Positions 27,600-36,551 of a stretch of 42,269 bases of DNA are shown piece after piece (within the stretch, counting starts at the first letter, position 1; each line of letters opens with the position of its first letter). This DNA comes from Thermosipho sp. (in: thermotogales). Its GTDB lineage: Bacteria > Thermotogota > Thermotogae > Thermotogales > Fervidobacteriaceae. The notes below the pieces were generated by a model. The model was not told the DNA's origin. It searched no databases and saw only the letters and a program-made list of their open reading frames with translations. The translations under genes and the position numbers were made by a program. The stretch is from the NCBI GenBank assembly GCA_017656335.1, contig JACDOA010000010.1, positions 1-42,269 on the forward strand, written 5' to 3'.

Positions 27600-28106
27600 A
27601 TTAAACATGATGAATATTGTGAATTTATAATCAGATAAATTGTTTTGAGTTTACAAATAAAAGCTATTTAGTTTTATAAAGTTCATAATATTGTGAATTT
27701 TTAAAAATTTCAATTGTAAAATTATGTACTTGAATGATAGATAATGCCTCTGTATATAGGTAATTTCAGAGGTATTTTTAATTATTCCGGAGCTTGAGGA
27801 ACTTGGTAAATAAAAAATAAAAATTTAGAATCTTTGTAAAAACTTTATCAAAGATAAGAGCTGCCATGGAAAGATAAAAATGGAGTTATAAAAAACAATT
27901 GATATGTGGAACTGAACCTACAAAAATTATTTAAATTTGATGCAATTACTATAACTCTAAAAAATGTTTTTAATACACTCGATTTAAGGTATGTACTTTA
28001 TGTTATAATTTTTACTGTGAGCAAGGATTGTTAAATTTTTTACATTTGATTGTATTATAATATTAATAAATATTTGAAGTATTATTTATTTTTGGGGTGA
28101 TAATTA
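27600..28106. other. Intergenic, 507 nt, no intact gene
   Basis: Apart from a terminator at 27743-27779 nothing is supported. A TATAAT-like hexamer lies at 28004-28009, about 100 nt before the response regulator, but without a good -35. Stop-ridden pieces near 27790-27900 (such as ELEELGK and HGKIKME) could be a worn gene fragment. Confidence 0.5.
27743..27779 (+). terminator. Intrinsic terminator downstream of the EamA gene
   Basis: AATGCCTCTG (27743-27752) pairs with CAGAGGTATT (27767-27776), one G-T wobble in ten pairs, 14-nt loop, followed by further Ts. It lies about 140 nt past the gene. Confidence 0.6.
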
Positions 28107-29141
28107 ATGAAGATATTGGTAGTTGATGATGATGAAGAAATAAGAAAGTCTCTATCTGATTATTTACATAGTAAAAATTATGAAGTTTACAAAGCTTCAA
28201 ATGGTGAAAAAGCTTGTGAATTGTTAAGCCAAAATTCTTTTGATTTGGTATTTATGGACATAAAAATGACCGGAATGAATGGAATAGAAACTATAAAATT
28301 GTTAAGAGAAAGGCAAATTCCAGTCATAGTAATTGCATTAACAGATTTTAATGAAGTAAGGATTGAAAAAATTGCAGAAGCTGGTTTCGATGATTTTGTT
28401 GAGAAGCCAATTAATTTTAAAGAAATTAATTTAAAACTCGAATTGATAAAAAAATATTTTCATTTTTATAAATCTAAATATAAATACTATTCAGAGTACG
28501 CTAAAAGTTTAACTGAATTAACGAAAAAAATAAAGGATTATGAAAAAACTAAAGATGACTTGATTATAGAAGCAATCCAATTGTTATACAATATATCTGA
28601 ATATAGAGATTATGAAACACATGACCACACAATGAGAATTGGGTGGCTCAGTGGAAAATTAGCTCAGAAAATTGGTTTATCTCATTCGTTTGTAAGTGAA
28701 ATTCAGTTTGCGGCTCCTTTACATGATATTGGTAAAATTGGTATTCCAGATGCAATACTATTGAAACCTGATAAACTTACAAGTGATGAATGGGAGATAA
28801 TGAAACAACATACGATAATAGGTTATAAAATATTAAAAAATGCGAAGAACCCAATTCTAAAATTGGCTGCAGAAATAGCTTTAACACATCATGAAAGATG
28901 GAATGGAAAAGGTTATCCTAGAGGATTGAAGGAAAATGAAATACCAATTTCAGGCCAAATAGTGGCCATTGCAGATAGTTTTGATGCTATTGTTTCAAAC
29001 CGACCATATAAAAATAAGCAACCATATATAGAAGGATTTTATGAGATTGAAAAAAATGCTGGAATACTTTATAACCCTGAGCTAGTAGAAAAGTTTTTAG
29101 AAATGAGGCATGAAATAGAAAATTATTATGAGCAAAAATGA
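28107..29141 (+). CDS. Response regulator with HD-GYP output domain
   Basis: 344 aa. The receiver domain (1-120) has the acidic pocket Asp7-Asp9, phospho-acceptor Asp51 (FMDIKMTG) and the Lys of EKPINF. After a helical linker (about 125-165) comes an HD-GYP domain with HDHTMRIGWLS, the HD pair in PLHDIGKIGIPD, HHERWNGKGYPRGL (the GYP motif) and IADSFDAIVSNRPYK. This architecture (RpfG-like) hydrolyses cyclic di-GMP on phosphorylation; the catalytic residues look complete. No histidine kinase gene is adjacent, so it is an orphan. The SD is GGGGTGATAAT. Confidence 0.92.
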   Translation: MKILVVDDDEEIRKSLSDYLHSKNYEVYKASNGEKACELLSQNSFDLVFMDIKMTGMNGIETIKLLRERQIPVIVIALTDFNEVRIEKIAEAGFDDFVEKPINFKEINLKLELIKKYFHFYKSKYKYYSEYAKSLTELTKKIKDYEKTKDDLIIEAIQLLYNISEYRDYETHDHTMRIGWLSGKLAQKIGLSHSFVSEIQFAAPLHDIGKIGIPDAILLKPDKLTSDEWEIMKQHTIIGYKILKNAKNPILKLAAEIALTHHERWNGKGYPRGLKENEIPISGQIVAIADSFDAIVSNRPYKNKQPYIEGFYEIEKNAGILYNPELVEKFLEMRHEIENYYEQK

Positions 29142-29384
29142 GTGTAAAAAATGCTTTTATTGAATATTTTAAGTTATTGGTAATAAATTGTATTGTTTTC
29201 TTATTTATATATAATTATAAAAATTATATTCAAACTTTCTAGGCAAATCTTCTCAAAGAATTGAGTATATTTCTCATTTTTGCCCAATATAACCCCTTCT
29301 AAAGATTTTGAATTTAAAGATTGAATAATATACAAAAAACTTATCCTAAATTCATTTAAAGTATATCAAAAATCCCAAAGAAAA

Positions 29385-29430
29385 AGATAAAAATCTCCCA
29401 AACGAAGATGATACTTTCATTTGGGAGATT
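29385..29430 (-). terminator. Intrinsic terminator of the heterodimeric ABC exporter operon
   Basis: A perfect 11-bp stem AATCTCCCAAA (29392-29402) / TTTGGGAGATT (29420-29430). On the minus strand it is followed by TTTTTATC. It lies 19 nt past the stop of the second ABC gene. Confidence 0.88.
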
Positions 29431-29448
29431 AATAAGAAAAAAGATTTT

Positions 29449-31242
29449 TTAAATTTCATATTCTTCAAGAAGTTGTTTTCCTTTTTCTTCTACAAATTGT
29501 TTTATATAGAGATTGTAATAATAGTCTCTCTTTTTCATCAGATTTTCGTGATTTCCTTCCTCTAAAATTTTTCCATCTTTTATCACCAGAATTCTATGTG
29601 CATTTCTTATAGTCGATAGTCTATGGGCAATTACAAAACTTGTTCTTCCATACAAAACTTTCATTATTGCATCTTGAATTAAATGCTCTGTGTATGCATC
29701 AACAGAAGATGTTGCTTCATCAAGAATGAAAATTTTTGGATCGGCAATTACAGCTCTTGCAAGAGAAATTAACTGTCTTTGACCAGTTGATAGTTTTGAA
29801 CCGCCTTCTCCTACATCTGTATTGTATCCATTTTCAAGATTCATTATAAAGTCATGTGCATTAACTAGTTTTGCTGCATTTATTATTTCATCCATAGTTG
29901 CATCAAGCCTTCCGTATCTTATATTTTCAGCAACTGTTCCACTAAACAAGTGAGGAGTTTGAAGTACATATCCAAGATTTGAGCGAAGTTTTTTTAATGG
30001 TATATTTCTATAATCAATACCATCAATATATATTACTCCTTTGACAGGTTCGTAAAATCTTCCAACAAGATTGACTATTGTAGATTTTCCAGAACCTGTT
30101 TCACCTACTAAGGCAATTACTTCTCCTTTTTTGACTTTTAGATTAAAGTTTTTAAGTACATAATCACCTTCTTTGTATTTAAAAAATACGTTTTTAAATT
30201 CGATTTCTCCTTGAATTTCAATATCAACGTTTTCTTTTGCTTCATCTTTAATGTCTGATTTTGTATCAAGTAGATCAAGCACTCTTTCAGCAGCAGCTTG
30301 AGCAGAAACTAAATCAGCGATTACTCTGGCTATTTCTCTAATTGGTTCAAAAAATTGTATTGAATAATTAATAAATGCAACAAGGGTACCAAAGGAAATA
30401 AGACCAGCGTAAACCCAATTTCCGCCAAAATAGATAATTGATGCTGTAGTAATACTTCCAATACTCATAACTATAGGTGTATAAGTAGAAGATAATACAG
30501 CAGCTTTTATCGAAGATCTTTTCATTTCCTCAGTTTGAGCTTTTAATTCTTCAATATGTTGCTCTTCAACTGAAAGTATTTTTGTAGTTTTAGCTCCCAT
30601 AATCCCTTCGTTAAATGTACCTGTTATTTCAGAATTTAATTTTCTAACTTTCCTATATTGCCTGAGAATTTTATTCTGAAAATATAAACTTATTAGAAAC
30701 AAAACTGGAATAGCAAGAATAATAAAAAGACCCAGTTTCCAGTTAAGAATTAATAAGTAAATAAAAATAAATAGCATAGTTGAAAAACCCCATATAATAT
30801 CAGTTAACCCCCAGGCAAGTACATTTGTTACTTTTCTTATATCTGACATCAATCTTGCCATTAAAAAACCCGTCTGAGTTGTGTCATAAAATGATAATGA
30901 TAATTCTTGCAATTTTTCAAATCCTGCCTTTCTTATATCATGTGCAAGATACGTTTCTATTTTAACTGCAAAGAAAATTAATAAAAAGACGTTTAAAGCC
31001 TGGATGCCAATTATAGTTAGAAAAATTATTATAAATTTGTGAAATCCTTGCAAGGATTTTGGTACAACGTAATTATCAATTGCATATTTAGTTAAATACG
31101 GAAAAGTTGCATCTATTGCACCAACTATAAGCATTACTGTTATTAAACCAAGCAAATGATATCTATATGGGTAGATAAATGATATAAACTTTTTCCAGAG
31201 TCTAAAATTTATTTTTGATTTATATTCTTTTTCTTGTGCCAT
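29449..31242 (-). CDS. ABC exporter half-transporter, catalytic-site subunit (BmrD/TM288-like)
   Basis: 597 aa: six membrane helices (about 25-320) followed by a nucleotide-binding domain. Walker A is GETGSGKST, the signature is LSTGQRQ (Thr for the usual Gly), Walker B is IFILDEATSSVD with the catalytic Glu kept, and the H-loop is IAHRLST. Its partner upstream lacks that Glu but has a perfect LSGGQ. So the pair forms one normal and one degenerate ATP site, as in BmrCD, LmrCD or TM287/288. The complex is expected to export drugs or lipids at the inner membrane. SD AGGTGAAAGGAA; it starts 20 nt after the partner's stop. Confidence 0.92.
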   Translation of the reverse strand: MAQEKEYKSKINFRLWKKFISFIYPYRYHLLGLITVMLIVGAIDATFPYLTKYAIDNYVVPKSLQGFHKFIIIFLTIIGIQALNVFLLIFFAVKIETYLAHDIRKAGFEKLQELSLSFYDTTQTGFLMARLMSDIRKVTNVLAWGLTDIIWGFSTMLFIFIYLLILNWKLGLFIILAIPVLFLISLYFQNKILRQYRKVRKLNSEITGTFNEGIMGAKTTKILSVEEQHIEELKAQTEEMKRSSIKAAVLSSTYTPIVMSIGSITTASIIYFGGNWVYAGLISFGTLVAFINYSIQFFEPIREIARVIADLVSAQAAAERVLDLLDTKSDIKDEAKENVDIEIQGEIEFKNVFFKYKEGDYVLKNFNLKVKKGEVIALVGETGSGKSTIVNLVGRFYEPVKGVIYIDGIDYRNIPLKKLRSNLGYVLQTPHLFSGTVAENIRYGRLDATMDEIINAAKLVNAHDFIMNLENGYNTDVGEGGSKLSTGQRQLISLARAVIADPKIFILDEATSSVDAYTEHLIQDAIMKVLYGRTSFVIAHRLSTIRNAHRILVIKDGKILEEGNHENLMKKRDYYYNLYIKQFVEEKGKQLLEEYEI

Positions 31243-31262
31243 TTCCTTTCACCTCGCACTGT

Positions 31263-33050
31263 CTATTCAGATTCTTTTTTGATAAGCGATTGTATTTTCC
31301 ATACTTTTTTGTACAGACCATCTTGATTTATTAATTCTTTATGAGTTCCAATATTGGTGACAACACCTTTTTCAAGAACTATTATCAAATCAGCATCTTT
31401 AACACTTGAAATCCTGTGAGAAATCAATATTGTTGTTCTTTCTTTACTTTTTTCTTTAAGTTCCTGCCTTATTTTCTCTTCTGTCTCAGTATCTACAGCA
31501 CTTAAAGAATCATCAAAAATTAAAATAGGAAATTCCTTTATTATAGTTCTTGCAATAGTTAATCTTTGTCTTTGACCACCTGATAAAGTAACTCCCTTTT
31601 CACCTATAAGTGTTTCATATGAATTTTCAAATTGTGTAATGTCGTCGTGAACTGCAGCAATTTTTGCGGATTCAATTACTTCCTCATCTTTTGCTTTGAT
31701 TTTAGTGATTTTGATATTTTCTTTTACTGTTTTTGAAAAAAGAAAAGCTTCCTGTGGAACAACGCCTATATTTTTTCTCAAAGTTTTTTTGGATATGTTT
31801 TTCAATTCAATTCCATCAATTGTAATTGAACCCGCATCGTAGTCGTATAATCTTAAAAGCAATGATATAATAGTACTTTTACCAGAACCGGTAGAGCCAA
31901 AAAATGCAACTGTTTGTCCGTGTTTTATTTTAAAAGATACACCTTTTAAAATTGGCTTATCTTTTGTATATCCAAACCAGACATCTTTAAAAACAATGTC
32001 ACCCTTTAATTTAATATCGCTTAGTCCTGATTCCACATCTTCTTTTTCTTCACTTAATATCTCATTTATCCTTTTTAGTGAAACTTTCATTTTACCAAGA
32101 TCAGAAAAAATTCTTCCCAATTGTCTTATAGGCCATAGTAGCATACCTATGTAACTTGAAAATGCAACTAAAGTACCAATAGTTATCTCCTGCCTTATTG
32201 CAAAATATGAACCAATAACGATAACTATTAATATTTGAGTTAAGCTAATAAGGTCAGATAATGACCAGAATTTTGCAAAAGTCAAACCTAAATTAAAATC
32301 AAGATTCCTATATTTTCGATTTCTATTATTAAATTTTTCTTTTTCATAATCTTCCCTTGCAAAAGCTTTTACCACTCGAACTCCTGTTATATTTTCCTGC
32401 AGTACTGTCGAAAGTGCTGCTTCTGCCTCATCTGCAAGTTTAAATTGTTTTTGAACCTTTTTAAAAAAATAGTATGTAAGTAGGAATGACACTGGAATTG
32501 TAATCATTGATATTAGAGCCATTTTCAAATTCATGCTAATCATGACGTATGTAATCATTCCTGTTAAAAATATTGTCCTTCCTATTTCAACAAACTGGTT
32601 AACAACAAAATTTCTCACAGTCTCAACATCAGATGTACACCTTTGAATAACATCACCAGATTGGTATTTAGAATAAAAGTAGTAGTCTGATTTTAATATT
32701 GTGGAGTAAAGTTCATCTTTTAGTCTTTTTGAAAGAGTTTCAGATGCTTCACTTGCAAACCTTCCTCTAAGATACATGAAAACACCGTTAAAAATGCTTA
32801 GAAGAATTATAATTAAAGCGGCAATAAATAGCTTTCCAGATACAGTATCTTGGAAATGAGATAAAGAGAAAATATAATTAATCCACTTTGATTCTATTGG
32901 CTTTTGACCAATAATAGAATCAACTGTTGTTTTGATAATAAGTGGTAAGATTACTGTAATTATTGAAGATACAATAGTTGATAAAATTGCAAAAAAGTAT
33001 ATTAATCTTTTACCTTTCATATATTTACCGATTAAATAGAAATTGTTCAT
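31263..33050 (-). CDS. ABC exporter half-transporter, degenerate-site subunit (BmrC/TM287-like)
   Basis: 595 aa: membrane domain (about 10-325) plus ATPase. Walker A is GSTGSGKST and the signature LSGGQRQRLTIAR is canonical. Walker B reads ILIFDDSLSAVD, with Asp where the catalytic Glu should be, which marks the degenerate member of a heterodimeric exporter. The start is ATG 33050 (SD AAAGGGGG); the open frame continues upstream into the terminator hairpin and should be ignored. It is the first structural gene behind a leader-peptide attenuator, so its expression is probably conditional. Confidence 0.92.
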   Translation of the reverse strand: MNNFYLIGKYMKGKRLIYFFAILSTIVSSIITVILPLIIKTTVDSIIGQKPIESKWINYIFSLSHFQDTVSGKLFIAALIIILLSIFNGVFMYLRGRFASEASETLSKRLKDELYSTILKSDYYFYSKYQSGDVIQRCTSDVETVRNFVVNQFVEIGRTIFLTGMITYVMISMNLKMALISMITIPVSFLLTYYFFKKVQKQFKLADEAEAALSTVLQENITGVRVVKAFAREDYEKEKFNNRNRKYRNLDFNLGLTFAKFWSLSDLISLTQILIVIVIGSYFAIRQEITIGTLVAFSSYIGMLLWPIRQLGRIFSDLGKMKVSLKRINEILSEEKEDVESGLSDIKLKGDIVFKDVWFGYTKDKPILKGVSFKIKHGQTVAFFGSTGSGKSTIISLLLRLYDYDAGSITIDGIELKNISKKTLRKNIGVVPQEAFLFSKTVKENIKITKIKAKDEEVIESAKIAAVHDDITQFENSYETLIGEKGVTLSGGQRQRLTIARTIIKEFPILIFDDSLSAVDTETEEKIRQELKEKSKERTTILISHRISSVKDADLIIVLEKGVVTNIGTHKELINQDGLYKKVWKIQSLIKKESE

Positions 33051-33067
33051 GTGTTTACCCCCTTTAA

Positions 33068-33103
33068 ATAAAAAAACTCCACGAGTGGACAACCCGTGGA
33101 GTT
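33068..33103 (-). terminator. Attenuator terminator ahead of the heterodimeric ABC operon
   Basis: Minus-strand stem: AACTCCACG (33103-33095) with CGTGGAGTT (33083-33075), 9 bp, 11-nt loop, then seven Ts. It sits between the leader peptide and the first ABC gene, 18 nt before its ATG. The loop contains GGTTGTCC (33094-33087), complementary to a segment in the leader. A terminator this strong before the first gene means transcription must be released by some signal. Confidence 0.88.
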
Positions 33104-33128
33104 CGTTATATCAAAAATAAATTAAGAA

Positions 33129-33212
33129 CTATTTGCGTAGCATTTTAACCCCGGAAAGGTTGCCCAATAAATAGATATTTAGTTTTCTTGATTTAGATAT
33201 TCTTATTCTCAT
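33129..33212 (-). CDS. Leader peptide of ABC operon 1 (27 aa)
   Basis: A 28-codon frame from ATG 33212 to TAG 33131-33129, too short for usual gene callers. SD AGGAGGG with 8-nt spacing is as good as any in the window. The peptide begins MRIRISKSRKLN and ends KMLRK; it is very basic. Residues 2-4 are Arg-Ile-Arg, the +X+ pattern that causes macrolide-dependent stalling in ErmD-type leader peptides. The nucleotides of Gly17-Asn18-Leu19 form GGGCAACC, which can pair either with GGTTGTCC between the SD and ATG or with the same octamer in the terminator loop. A regulatory peptide, translated in cis, is the best explanation. Confidence 0.75.
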   Translation of the reverse strand: MRIRISKSRKLNIYLLGNLSGVKMLRK

Positions 33213-33253
33213 TGGACAACCCTCCTTTTCAATCAGATTTTTAAGATGGAATT

Positions 33254-33282
33254 AGTGTATCATTATTTTAAAAATGTGTCAA
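33254..33282 (-). promoter_or_regulatory. Promoter of ABC operon 1
   Basis: Minus-strand TTGACA (33282-33277) and TACACT (33259-33254) with exactly 17 nt between. The predicted start is about 35 nt before the leader peptide ATG, so the whole attenuator is transcribed. Confidence 0.8.
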
Positions 33283-33402
33283 CGATAAATTTAGTTGTAA
33301 ATAAATTGTAAAATAATCTTAAAGTTAAAAAGTTGTTTTTGATATAGTTACGCCCCTTTTCAAAAACAGTGGGTATATTAAAAAAATATAGCCATTCCTT
33401 TT

Positions 33403-33801
33403 TCAACACATATTGCGAGAAGAGTATAGCTGTTTGCACAAGTCTTTACATCTTTTTATCCACCATTTTTTATATTGGTTGTGTGAAATAATTTTTAAAT
33501 GTGATATATTACTTATTTTTTCATTTTTGCACCAGTTTATACAGATTAAATAAAGTTCCCAATCAAGTTCTTCTGTTTCCCATACTACTTTGATTTTCTT
33601 AAATCCCATTTTCCAGAGGGCAAATGCTCTTGTGTGTCCATCTGTATAGAAAATAATATTATCAATTTGTTTAACAGGTATTGGTTCGATGTTGTTAACA
33701 CCATTATTTCTTATGTATTTTATTACATTTTTAAGTTTTTCTTTTGAAATATAAAGTTGACTTGGCATTACTTTGTCAATATCAAGGTAGAAGTAATTCA
33801 T
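33403..33801 (-). CDS. ParB/sulfiredoxin-like nuclease-fold protein
   Basis: 132 aa. The N-terminal 90 residues match the ParB-N / sulfiredoxin superfamily: a strand-helix start (YLDIDKVMPSQLYISKEKL), IEPIPVKQIDNIIFYTDGHTRAFALWKMG with the characteristic DGHTRA box, then IKVVWE. No partner ParA, no DNA-binding HTH and no centromere-like repeats are seen, so this is not a chromosome-segregation ParB. Stand-alone members are uncharacterised; some ParB-like proteins have nuclease, CTPase or kinase activity. It has GGGGGC as a modest SD and lies between the two attenuator-controlled ABC operons. Function unknown. Confidence 0.75.
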   Translation of the reverse strand: MNYFYLDIDKVMPSQLYISKEKLKNVIKYIRNNGVNNIEPIPVKQIDNIIFYTDGHTRAFALWKMGFKKIKVVWETEELDWELYLICINWCKNEKISNISHLKIISHNQYKKWWIKRCKDLCKQLYSSRNMC

Positions 33802-33920
33802 ATAAATGCCCCCATGTTTATAAATATTTTTTACTAGAATTTATTTGTTTTTCATTTTTAATCATATTATATAACAACTTTTTCTTTCTTCTAAAATCTG
33901 TTGGTTGATTGTTATTTTGA

Positions 33921-34856
33921 TTATCCTACAATTTCTTCAAGTTGTCTTGCAGCAGTTATACCTGAACGTATGTTATCCCATATTCCAATTGAAGTAAATA
34001 ATTGATATCTAATTAATGTAAATAAATTTAAAAGAGCGTAGAATGTACCAGCATTACCTAAAATTATTCCACGGTATATAACAAAGAGATAGAATGCTGC
34101 AGAAATAAAATCTCTAATGGAGAAACTCAAAATAGCATCAATAAAGTATAATCTTTTTTTGTATTTCCAAAAGGAATCTGTTCTTTTTTGAAAAAGGTTT
34201 ATTTCAAAATCGTATGCTTCAAATAGTTGTATTTCTTCTTTTCCTTTAAACATATCTGCAACGTATGATTTAATTTCTAAAAATTGATCTTTTACTACTT
34301 TTGCGTGCTTATAGTAGTAATTATTTGCTACCCACAAAGAAAGTAAAATTAAGATAGCAAATAATACCATGGATAATCCTGAAATATGATCAAGCGTATA
34401 AATAGTAATCATGTAAAATGCTATTTTAAATGCAAATACAAGCCCACCTGAGTTATCGTAATCAGCTATTATGTATAATAAATTTTCAGTTGTTCTTAAA
34501 GAAACTTCAGAGTAAAACGCTGGAGTTTTTCTGGAAAAATCAACAAAATCTTTATTCATAACTTTTTTATAGCAATATTCACCAAGATATTTTAAATATC
34601 GACCTTTGGTAAAAGATACAAATCCTCCACCAAGAGTATATAAAATATGACTTGATAAAACTGCTATTACTAATATTAAACTATTTAGAAAAAATTTATT
34701 ATCCATAGAGATAGCATAGTTTATTACATTTTTACTCAAAATATTGCTATATGAGATAATTAAACTTGAAAATATTCCGAAAATGTTCATTAAAAAAACC
34801 ATGTTGACTACCTTTTTAGGGACTTTTGAAAAAAGCCATTTTATCATTTTTGTCAT
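33921..34856 (-). CDS. ABC exporter membrane subunit without ATPase domain (second of pair)
   Basis: 311 aa with about six membrane helices in the pattern of a type-IV ABC exporter domain. The coupling-helix-like segment around FKGKEEIQLFEAYDFEINLF is visible. The protein ends at ARQLEEIVG, exactly where the linker to the ATPase starts in fused exporters, so the ATPase is naturally separate. Its ATG overlaps the stop of the ATPase gene by 4 nt (ATGA). With the other membrane subunit it should form the channel. Confidence 0.82.
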   Translation of the reverse strand: MTKMIKWLFSKVPKKVVNMVFLMNIFGIFSSLIISYSNILSKNVINYAISMDNKFFLNSLILVIAVLSSHILYTLGGGFVSFTKGRYLKYLGEYCYKKVMNKDFVDFSRKTPAFYSEVSLRTTENLLYIIADYDNSGGLVFAFKIAFYMITIYTLDHISGLSMVLFAILILLSLWVANNYYYKHAKVVKDQFLEIKSYVADMFKGKEEIQLFEAYDFEINLFQKRTDSFWKYKKRLYFIDAILSFSIRDFISAAFYLFVIYRGIILGNAGTFYALLNLFTLIRYQLFTSIGIWDNIRSGITAARQLEEIVG

Positions 34857-35596
34857 AAAACATCATCCTCTCTAAATTTTTCCGTTAATTCCTGTTCTGC
34901 TCTGAAAAATTGTTTTAAAAGACTTTCATTTGAATGTTCATGATATTTTCCTTTTTCAACAATTTTTCCATTTTCAAGTACTGCAAATTCATCGGTTAAT
35001 GAAAGAATGCTAAATCTATGAGATATTAAAATAAGTGTTTTATCTTTAACAAATTCTTTTATATTTTCAATAACCTCTTTTTCTACAAGTTTGTCCACAC
35101 CTTCAAGTGGTTCATCGAGAATAATAAGTTCTGGATTTCTTAATAACAGTCTTGCAAGTGCTATTCTTGTTCGTTCACCACCTGATATATAACTTCCATC
35201 ACTTCCAAGAATGGTATCAAGTGTTCTTGTCTTTATGAACTTTTTTAGGCCAGCTTTTTCAAGAGCTTCATGCATTTCTTTATCTGTTGCTACAGGATTT
35301 GCAATAAGGAGGTTGTCTCTTAAAGATCTATTAAATATATGTGCTCTTTGACTTAAAACCCCAAGAATCTTGTACCAATTCTTAAATTCTGATAGAGGCT
35401 TTTCATTTACCATTATCTTTCCAGAATGTGGAGTTATATACTTTAAAATAAGCCTTATCAAAGTGGTTTTCCCTTCACCACTTGATCCTACTATTGCTAG
35501 TTTTTCACTGCGATTTATCTCTAAATTAAAATTATTCAGAATTTTTCTTCCTTCATATTCAAAAGTTACATTTATAAATTCAAGTTTTTCAAACAT
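34853..35596 (-). CDS. Stand-alone ABC ATPase of the split exporter
   Basis: 247 aa, a complete nucleotide-binding domain: A-loop FEYEGRKIL, Walker A GSSGEGKTT, Q-loop VLSQRAHIFN, signature ISGGERTRIALAR, Walker B LIILDEPLEGVD with catalytic Glu, and H-loop LISHRFS. The sequence is exporter-type (close to CydCD/MsbA-like domains), although it is encoded alone as in importers. The gene lies between the two membrane subunits; one ATPase presumably acts as homodimer with two different membrane proteins. SD AAGGAGGAG. Confidence 0.9.
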   Translation of the reverse strand: MFEKLEFINVTFEYEGRKILNNFNLEINRSEKLAIVGSSGEGKTTLIRLILKYITPHSGKIMVNEKPLSEFKNWYKILGVLSQRAHIFNRSLRDNLLIANPVATDKEMHEALEKAGLKKFIKTRTLDTILGSDGSYISGGERTRIALARLLLRNPELIILDEPLEGVDKLVEKEVIENIKEFVKDKTLILISHRFSILSLTDEFAVLENGKIVEKGKYHEHSNESLLKQFFRAEQELTEKFREDDVL

Positions 35597-35597
35597 A

Positions 35598-36551
35598 TTA
35601 TTTCTCCTCCTTTAAATACTCATTATACGCAACTTTTGCTCTTGCAATTGCCCATGAAATATAATCAGTATCTTGAATATATACCTTTGAGTAGTCAAGC
35701 ACTCTTTCAGTATAAACAAGAAGCATTATAGCTTTTCCAGCAGAAAGATTTCCAGAAAAGACCTGAAATCCTAGTAGAAAAGTAATAATAGGTATGGTTA
35801 AAATTGATATTAATTCATATGTGAAACCAAATCGAATTTCAACTTTTCCATATAAATCGTATGATTTTTTCAACCTGGTTAGTGCTTCTGATATCCAAGT
35901 AAAGGTGATGGGAAGTGTTTCATAACTTTTGATATCTTCGTATCCAGAGTATAAATCAGAAAATGTTTCAGAAACATCATATTCTGCTTCGTTCATTTTG
36001 TTTGCAGCTTGTTCTTCAACTTTCATTTTTTTATTACTTGATATCCACATGAAGATAAATCCCAGTATTGCAATAACTCCTGCCTCCCATTCATTGAGAA
36101 TTATCATACTAATGGAGAGAAACATCATAATTGGTACAATTAAAACGTAAAGTGTAAAATTTCTATAAAAAAATTCAAAAATGTGTTGAAAACTAAATAT
36201 TTTATCCATTTCTTTTTCTGGAATGAAATTGTTATCTTTTCTTTTTAATGCATTTGATATTGCTCTTTTAAACAAATACTTTGGTGCCTCTACCGTTGAA
36301 AAGATTCTTCTTGTCGTTCCACTTATTTGGTTTAAGATAACTCTCGCTAAATAGATAAGAGTGAAAATATAGAAAAAGTTTAAAAGTATAGGTTTACCAA
36401 AGTTATCCACAATTTTTCCTAGAAAAATAGGAAGAATAAAAGATAAAAACATAGATGTAATATAGGAAATATCGATAAAAAGTTTTTTGATAAAAAGAGA
36501 AGTTGGAAGAATCCTGTGAAATAAAATAAAATATTTGTAAAGGTCCTTCAT
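35598..36551 (-). CDS. ABC exporter membrane subunit without ATPase domain (first of pair)
   Basis: 317 aa, about six membrane helices of the ABC exporter type (LPIFLGKIVDNFGKPILLNFF near the first loop; YSGYEDIKSYETLPITF near the coupling helix; GKAIMLLVYTERVLDY near helix 6). It stops at NEYLKEEK, before any ATPase. First gene of the three-gene operon membrane-ATPase-membrane. ATG 36551 has TGGAGGGA 6 nt upstream and lies 34 nt past an attenuator terminator. Confidence 0.82.
   Translation of the reverse strand: MKDLYKYFILFHRILPTSLFIKKLFIDISYITSMFLSFILPIFLGKIVDNFGKPILLNFFYIFTLIYLARVILNQISGTTRRIFSTVEAPKYLFKRAISNALKRKDNNFIPEKEMDKIFSFQHIFEFFYRNFTLYVLIVPIMMFLSISMIILNEWEAGVIAILGFIFMWISSNKKMKVEEQAANKMNEAEYDVSETFSDLYSGYEDIKSYETLPITFTWISEALTRLKKSYDLYGKVEIRFGFTYELISILTIPIITFLLGFQVFSGNLSAGKAIMLLVYTERVLDYSKVYIQDTDYISWAIARAKVAYNEYLKEEK

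Follow-up and report, generated by a model that had tools for sequence, protein, structure and literature searches.

A conserved leader with alternative RNA pairings, a putative ribosome-mediated attenuator, upstream of a heterodimeric ABC exporter in Thermosipho and related genera

Results

Organisation of the exporter locus

The window, by which we mean the whole 42,269-nt stretch of Thermosipho sp. DNA that was analysed, carries two neighbouring minus-strand genes for ABC exporter subunits, preceded by a leader with its own promoter, a short open reading frame (ORF) and an intrinsic terminator (Table 1). Sequence matches of the subunit pair include TM287/288, BmrCD and TmrAB-type structures. 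One degenerate ATPase site is the arrangement of heterodimeric exporters, as exemplified by TM287/288, BmrCD and TmrAB. The motifs in both nucleotide-binding domains fit this arrangement, and FDDS and LSGGQ of the first subunit are invariant in eight orthologs, with the second ABC gene directly downstream in the orthologous loci. Judged by these motifs, the operon is one for a heterodimeric drug-type ABC exporter with one degenerate ATPase site, and encodes a putative drug pump.

Table 1. Features of the leader and of the exporter operon in the window
Feature	Position	Strand	Sequence, description or basis
Promoter	33254..33282	-	TTGACA-N17-TACACT; sequence and promoter scan
Leader SD	33225-33221	-	GGAGG; sequence
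Segment A	33209..33225	-	GGAGGGUUGUCCAAUGA; leader SD, octamer copy 1 and AUG; predicted 5' arm of the anti-antiterminator
Octamer, two copies	33221-33214 and 33094-33087	-	GGTTGTCC; sequence
Leader ORF	33129..33212	-	27 codons, peptide MRIRISKSRKLNIYLLGNLSGVKMLRK; open frame, strong SD
Segment B	33154..33170	-	UUAUUGGGCAACCUUUC; predicted partner of A or of C
Complement octamer	33165-33158	-	GGGCAACC; sequence
Intrinsic terminator	33070..33104 (hairpin 33104-33074)	-	13 pairs and 7-T run; –19.2 kcal/mol
Segment C	33086..33095	-	GGGUUGUCCA; octamer copy 2, terminator apex and upper 5' stem; predicted antiterminator partner of B
SD of first ABC gene	33065-33058	-	AAAGGGGG
First ABC exporter subunit	31263..33050	-	595 aa, TMD+NBD; Pfam PF00664 and PF00005; FDDS replaces the catalytic Glu, canonical LSGGQ
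Second ABC exporter subunit	29449..31242	-	597 aa, TMD+NBD; PF00664 and PF00005; LDEA with catalytic Glu, degenerate signature LSTGQ

Three minus-strand ORFs at 33921-36551 adjoin the exporter pair and resemble an ABC exporter divided into separate genes for a membrane part, the ATPase and a second membrane part. Ahead of the leader, the window has a gene (33403-33801) whose 132-aa product weakly matches the N-terminal region of SerK, an ADP-dependent serine kinase (E 4e-5, far below the cut-off); this gene was found in only 4 of 20 family genomes.

The promoter, the SD, the 27-codon ORF, both copies of GGTTGTCC, the complement GGGCAACC and the terminator had been proposed in an initial annotation of this DNA as parts of a three-way switch, and all were recovered at their annotated positions. 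Their structural description needed revision in several respects. The terminator ahead of the first ABC gene, first put at 9 bp, comprises 13 pairs and closes on a loop of 5 nt (TGTCC); the second octamer copy, which had been assigned to this loop, thus extends into the upper 5' stem. Pairing of the first copy had been thought to hide the edge of the SD; the SD is indeed hidden, but in a predicted 17-bp helix between A and B (33225-33209 with 33170-33154, –25.1 kcal/mol) that buries it entirely, along with the AUG. The alternative helix between B and C measures 10 bp (–16.2 kcal/mol) in the window. In these predicted pairings, B is shared by A:B and B:C, and C is common to B:C and the terminator. 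The computations establish the elements and, at the level of predicted pairing, their mutual exclusivity. The leader RNA is more stable than dinucleotide shuffles, with a folding z-score of –3.6, and a scan of positions 28000-36000 returned this terminator as the only terminator-like site.

Conservation across three genera

Orthologs of the first ABC gene are present in 9 of 20 family genomes, representing 3 of 5 genera. Eight loci were compared, the window (L001) and seven orthologs with protein identities of 83 to 49%, from three Fervidobacteriaceae genera; Thermosipho and Fervidobacterium are both placed in this family (NCBI taxonomy). The ortholog in genome G018 was left out of the leader comparison, as its contig ends before the upstream DNA.

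The A-B-C layout is found in all eight loci, even though the sequences separating the motifs do not align; conservation of the layout itself is thereby established. Segment A consists of an SD running into GGTTGYCC and then ATG (GGTTTGCCC in L002, GGTTGCTC in L008). Segment B has the consensus GGRCARCC, starts 47–60 nt past the leader ATG and lies either inside the leader ORF or directly after its stop. Segment C, GGTTG(T/C).., follows at a distance of 43–141 nt from B within the apex of the terminator, which itself is conserved with covarying stem pairs and has energies of –15.1 to –21.3 kcal/mol. The apex begins 34–89 nt 3' of the leader stop. A TTGAC-type promoter with a spacer of 16–18 lies 17–50 nt upstream of segment A in every locus (8/8). 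The complementary octamers, whose absence from close relatives would, by the initial annotation, have spoken against its model, are therefore conserved in 8/8 orthologs, and dual pairing of the GGGCAACC equivalent with either octamer copy was computed in each of them.

The leader peptide behaves differently from what had been anticipated. An ORF of 16–39 codons with a strong SD occupies the same place in all eight loci, but its product is not conserved in sequence, an outcome that the initial annotation had listed among those able to refute its model: the peptides start with MRIR, MRRR, MDKQ, MINS, MRIS, MKMT, MVGT and MVGI and are otherwise unrelated, and the reading frame across B differs among orthologs. 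No codon run, the hallmark of amino-acid attenuators, is shared by the eight leaders. In genus g2 (L007 and L008), the leader stop TAG lies one base before B, where a terminating ribosome would cover B. In the promoter-SD interval of the 5' UTR, L006 to L008, from two genera, have in common a near-palindrome, TTTGCAAAGC(A/G)AACTTTT, near the expected transcription start.

Pairing strength and coordinated change

Across the eight loci, B pairs with A at –14.8 to –27.0 kcal/mol and with C at –14.7 to –23.8 kcal/mol. In the motif alignment, standard pairs fill 91% of the A:B cells and 97% of the B:C cells; sliding the register by 1–3 columns reduces these values to 26–52%. When A and C were kept constant, none of 600 dinucleotide shuffles of the intervening DNA in the window matched B in dual-pairing strength, and the same energy test gave 0–6 of 600 per locus for the eight orthologs, B always being the best dual-pairing site. 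A statistic based on contiguous pair runs was reached by 16 of 2000 shuffles for the window and was non-significant in several orthologs. This run-length test is crude, given the frequency of G-U runs and a mismatch in one ortholog; the energy-based test was used in its place, and both are reported.

The coordinated octamer change that the initial annotation had hoped to see in other leaders occurs in genus g2, where U is replaced by C at the sixth octamer base in both A and C, and A by G in B. The window and L004 represent G-U intermediates. Coordinated change of all three segments is thus established. In column-shuffle controls on the eight related sequences, covariation was not significant for A:B and suggestive for B:C (6/500 for two measures). 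We regard the covariation seen in this alignment as supporting, not decisive, since eight sequences from three genera hold few independent events. Because column-shuffle controls are weak with eight sequences, the case rests on how strongly the segments pair, on their conservation and on the slid-register controls.

Predicted dependence on ribosome position

To mimic the co-transcriptional state, we folded nascent RNA that ended with C and still lacked the terminator's 3' arm. Without a ribosome, A:B formed in six of the eight leaders. When the start was masked by a ribosome, as had been suggested for checking the model, B:C formed in 8/8 nascent leaders, with probabilities of 0.76–1.0 at 37 °C. 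Sliding a 31-nt ribosome footprint along the ORF yielded B:C as long as the P-site stood at codons 1 to about 5; past about codon 5, either A:B returned or B was covered, and once the ribosome had passed B, A:B was restored in most of the longer ORFs. Pairing is less strict in L002 and L008, where A:B is weak and B:C prevails even without a ribosome, as well as after a stall anywhere ahead of B. The weakest B:C is that of L004 (0.42 at 65 °C). The proposed three-way logic is thus kept in every ortholog tested and behaves as expected under constrained folding, which establishes a predicted dependence on ribosome position.

In the complete leader at equilibrium and with a ribosome parked, the terminator outcompetes B:C in seven of eight loci. 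Capture of C by B would hence have to be kinetic, a non-equilibrium event in which B:C forms first. The predicted signal is a ribosome held at initiation or on the first five or so codons, whatever the peptide sequence. That the peptide is unconserved while ORF and strong SD are always there likewise points to an early-stall sensor that is indifferent to sequence.

Discussion

A putative ribosome-mediated attenuator

We propose that the leader is a ribosome-mediated transcription attenuator of the anti-antiterminator/antiterminator/terminator type, a reading to which we assign a probability of roughly 0.77 and whose ribosome and drug steps draw on analogy and on predicted RNA behaviour. By default, before translation or once a ribosome has run through the short ORF, B would pair with A. 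The A:B helix would bury the leader SD and the start codon and leave C free, the terminator would form, and transcription would end before the pump genes. If a ribosome came to rest at the start codon or within roughly the first five codons, it would cover A and leave B bare; initiation-arresting and early-elongation antibiotics hold ribosomes in this way, and bacteria are known to sense ribosome-blocking antibiotics by stalls early in a short leader ORF. With the 3' arm of the terminator still to be transcribed, B could then capture C on the nascent RNA, and the polymerase would read on into the heterodimeric exporter. By analogy with characterised leaders, we infer translation of the ORF, read-through, and induction by a ribosome-targeting drug that the pump itself would export.

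The leader peptide could instead be the sensor, stalling drug-specifically with macrolides as ErmDL or MefAL (MRLR) do. The window peptide begins with MRIR and that of L002 with MRRR, an R/K-X-R/K motif falls within the first 11 codons in four of the eight leaders, and MRLR leaders are known macrolide sensors (PMC10314930). Nevertheless, we consider such an arrest peptide unlikely. The other four leaders are without the motif, the frame over B differs, and what is conserved is the RNA pairing, not the peptide. A conserved arrest motif of the ErmDL/MefAL type (+X+) was not found across the eight leaders, and with the motif in only four of them and the peptides unrelated, conservation of an arrest peptide was rejected. 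If the ORF is incidental, a factor other than the ribosome, be it a protein or a ligand, might occupy A or free B, and conservation of A, B and C alongside a varying peptide would be compatible with such an RNA switch. This is very unlikely, however, as A combines SD and ATG in 8/8 loci and an ORF of 16 codons or more starts from every copy; moreover, an Rfam covariance-model search of the window gave no family at gathering score, and no additional conserved, aptamer-like domain was seen in the leader alignment of the eight loci.

Two further explanations would do away with the switch at the RNA level. Two direct copies and one inverted copy of the octamer GGTTGTCC inside about 135 bp could be a DNA operator to which a regulator protein binds, in which case the pairing would be incidental. 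The spacing, however, varies without helical phase (A to B 47–60 nt, B to C 43–141 nt), variants maintain RNA pairing via G-U, and without exception copy 1 lies right next to the leader ATG and copy 2 at the terminator apex, all of which makes an operator highly improbable. Lastly, an SD-sequestering hairpin and an ordinary terminator might share an octamer by accident, and both hairpins do coexist without B:C in the full leader at equilibrium. We give hardly any credence to this explanation: all eight loci contain the common octamer and a complement able to pair with both copies, with coordinated changes and at strengths that few shuffles reach (0–6/600 per locus), and the promoter lies upstream of the leader, which therefore places the terminator inside the pump operon's own transcript. 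Taken together, ribosome-mediated attenuation is the reading that we retain; the leader appears to be a real, conserved three-way attenuator, in the model a variant on known attenuation logic.

Relation to known attenuators

The closest known mechanism is the vmlR leader of B. subtilis rather than bmrB. In vmlR, which encodes an ABCF resistance factor, the uORF is buried in an anti-antiterminator and is accompanied by an alternative antiterminator and an intrinsic terminator; most uORF sequence variants are tolerated, and drugs that stall initiating ribosomes induce (PMC9226507). The leaders described here share these traits: an intrinsic terminator lies between promoter and regulated gene in 8/8 loci, an SD-bearing uORF is part of the predicted anti-antiterminator, the predicted antiterminator overlaps both other structures, an early (initiation) stall is the predicted signal and the uORF sequence seems largely unimportant. 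The differences are equally clear. The phylum is another one, a membrane exporter takes the place of the ABCF gene, the ORF has 16–39 codons instead of 3, and here the complement is common to two octamer copies, at the SD and at the terminator apex. The resemblance to vmlR is one of logic, and we claim no homology.

The bmrB-bmrCD system of B. subtilis, which the initial annotation had offered as functional parallel, remains the nearest with regard to the regulated gene, whereas the mechanism is closer to that of vmlR. As in our model of the present locus, bmrB-bmrCD combines a leader ORF with three alternative structures, and ribosome-mediated attenuation governs a heterodimeric ABC exporter (PMC4191407), and the exporter downstream of our leader likewise has one degenerate ATPase site (FDDS in subunit 1, LSTGQ in subunit 2). 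In B. subtilis, however, the terminator is located within the 53-codon ORF and the anti-antiterminator has an uncertain role (PMC4191407), whereas here the terminator lies outside the leader coding sequence, its apex well past the leader stop, and the predicted anti-antiterminator covers SD and AUG.

The mefA/msrD and ermD leaders also place a short leader peptide 5' of a resistance gene, and their MRLR resembles the MRIR of the window, but these are drug-specific arrest peptides in contrast to the unconserved peptides found here, and in msrD it is the stalled ribosome that masks the terminator arm (PMC10314930). With the amino-acid attenuators of trp and his, the leader shares mutually exclusive RNA hairpins read by ribosome position; unlike these, it has no conserved regulatory codons and its downstream gene is not biosynthetic.

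We lean towards the view that these Thermotogota leaders form a so far undescribed class of antibiotic-sensing attenuator. A single complement would choose between two octamer copies, at the leader start codon and at the terminator apex, and the leader would read only a ribosome stuck on the first five or so codons of any peptide. Such a device would be a general detector of initiation and early-elongation inhibitors in control of a multidrug exporter. No description of such a leader in Thermotogota was found in the open-access literature, most subscription papers lying outside this coverage. If the model holds, attenuation-based, ribosome-mediated drug sensing, for which the best evidence comes from Bacillota, would extend to a deep-branching phylum of thermophiles, and natural ribosome inhibitors would seem to matter to these bacteria. 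The wiring would be compact and would need no conserved peptide, the rule being that a stall at codons 1–5 turns the pump on. An SD-proximal sequence repeated in a terminator apex could then serve as a recognition mark for similar switches.

Distribution of the putative switch

A pattern search of 103 Thermotogota genomes, a set that may omit near relatives of the window genome, gave seven matches, all seven ahead of transporter orthologs. A covariance model recovered the eight true loci at E<1e-13, followed by a gap to 6e-4, and neither method found further copies of the element elsewhere in the 103 genomes. An exact-pattern scan of GTDB r220 contigs returned 64 matches, of which one is true; it belongs to Fervidobacterium sp. 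UBA5837 and lies on the same contig as one of the orthologs. In the remaining 63, no octamer C was seen in a terminator apex, and we attribute them to chance. Those of the other terminator-motif pattern matches in the family that were inspected are without a hairpin.

Elsewhere in Thermotogota, the model gave weak matches (E 6e-4 to 1) that resemble ordinary terminators, with the exception of one relic in genome G007 (L110:1573-1612, contig C4). This is a lone attenuator terminator, ACTCCATGGGTTGTCCAACTCATGGAGT, without A, B or transporter, and it lies directly downstream of an ortholog of the gene at 33403-33801, the one found ahead of the leader in the window. It is probably the scar of an operon loss.
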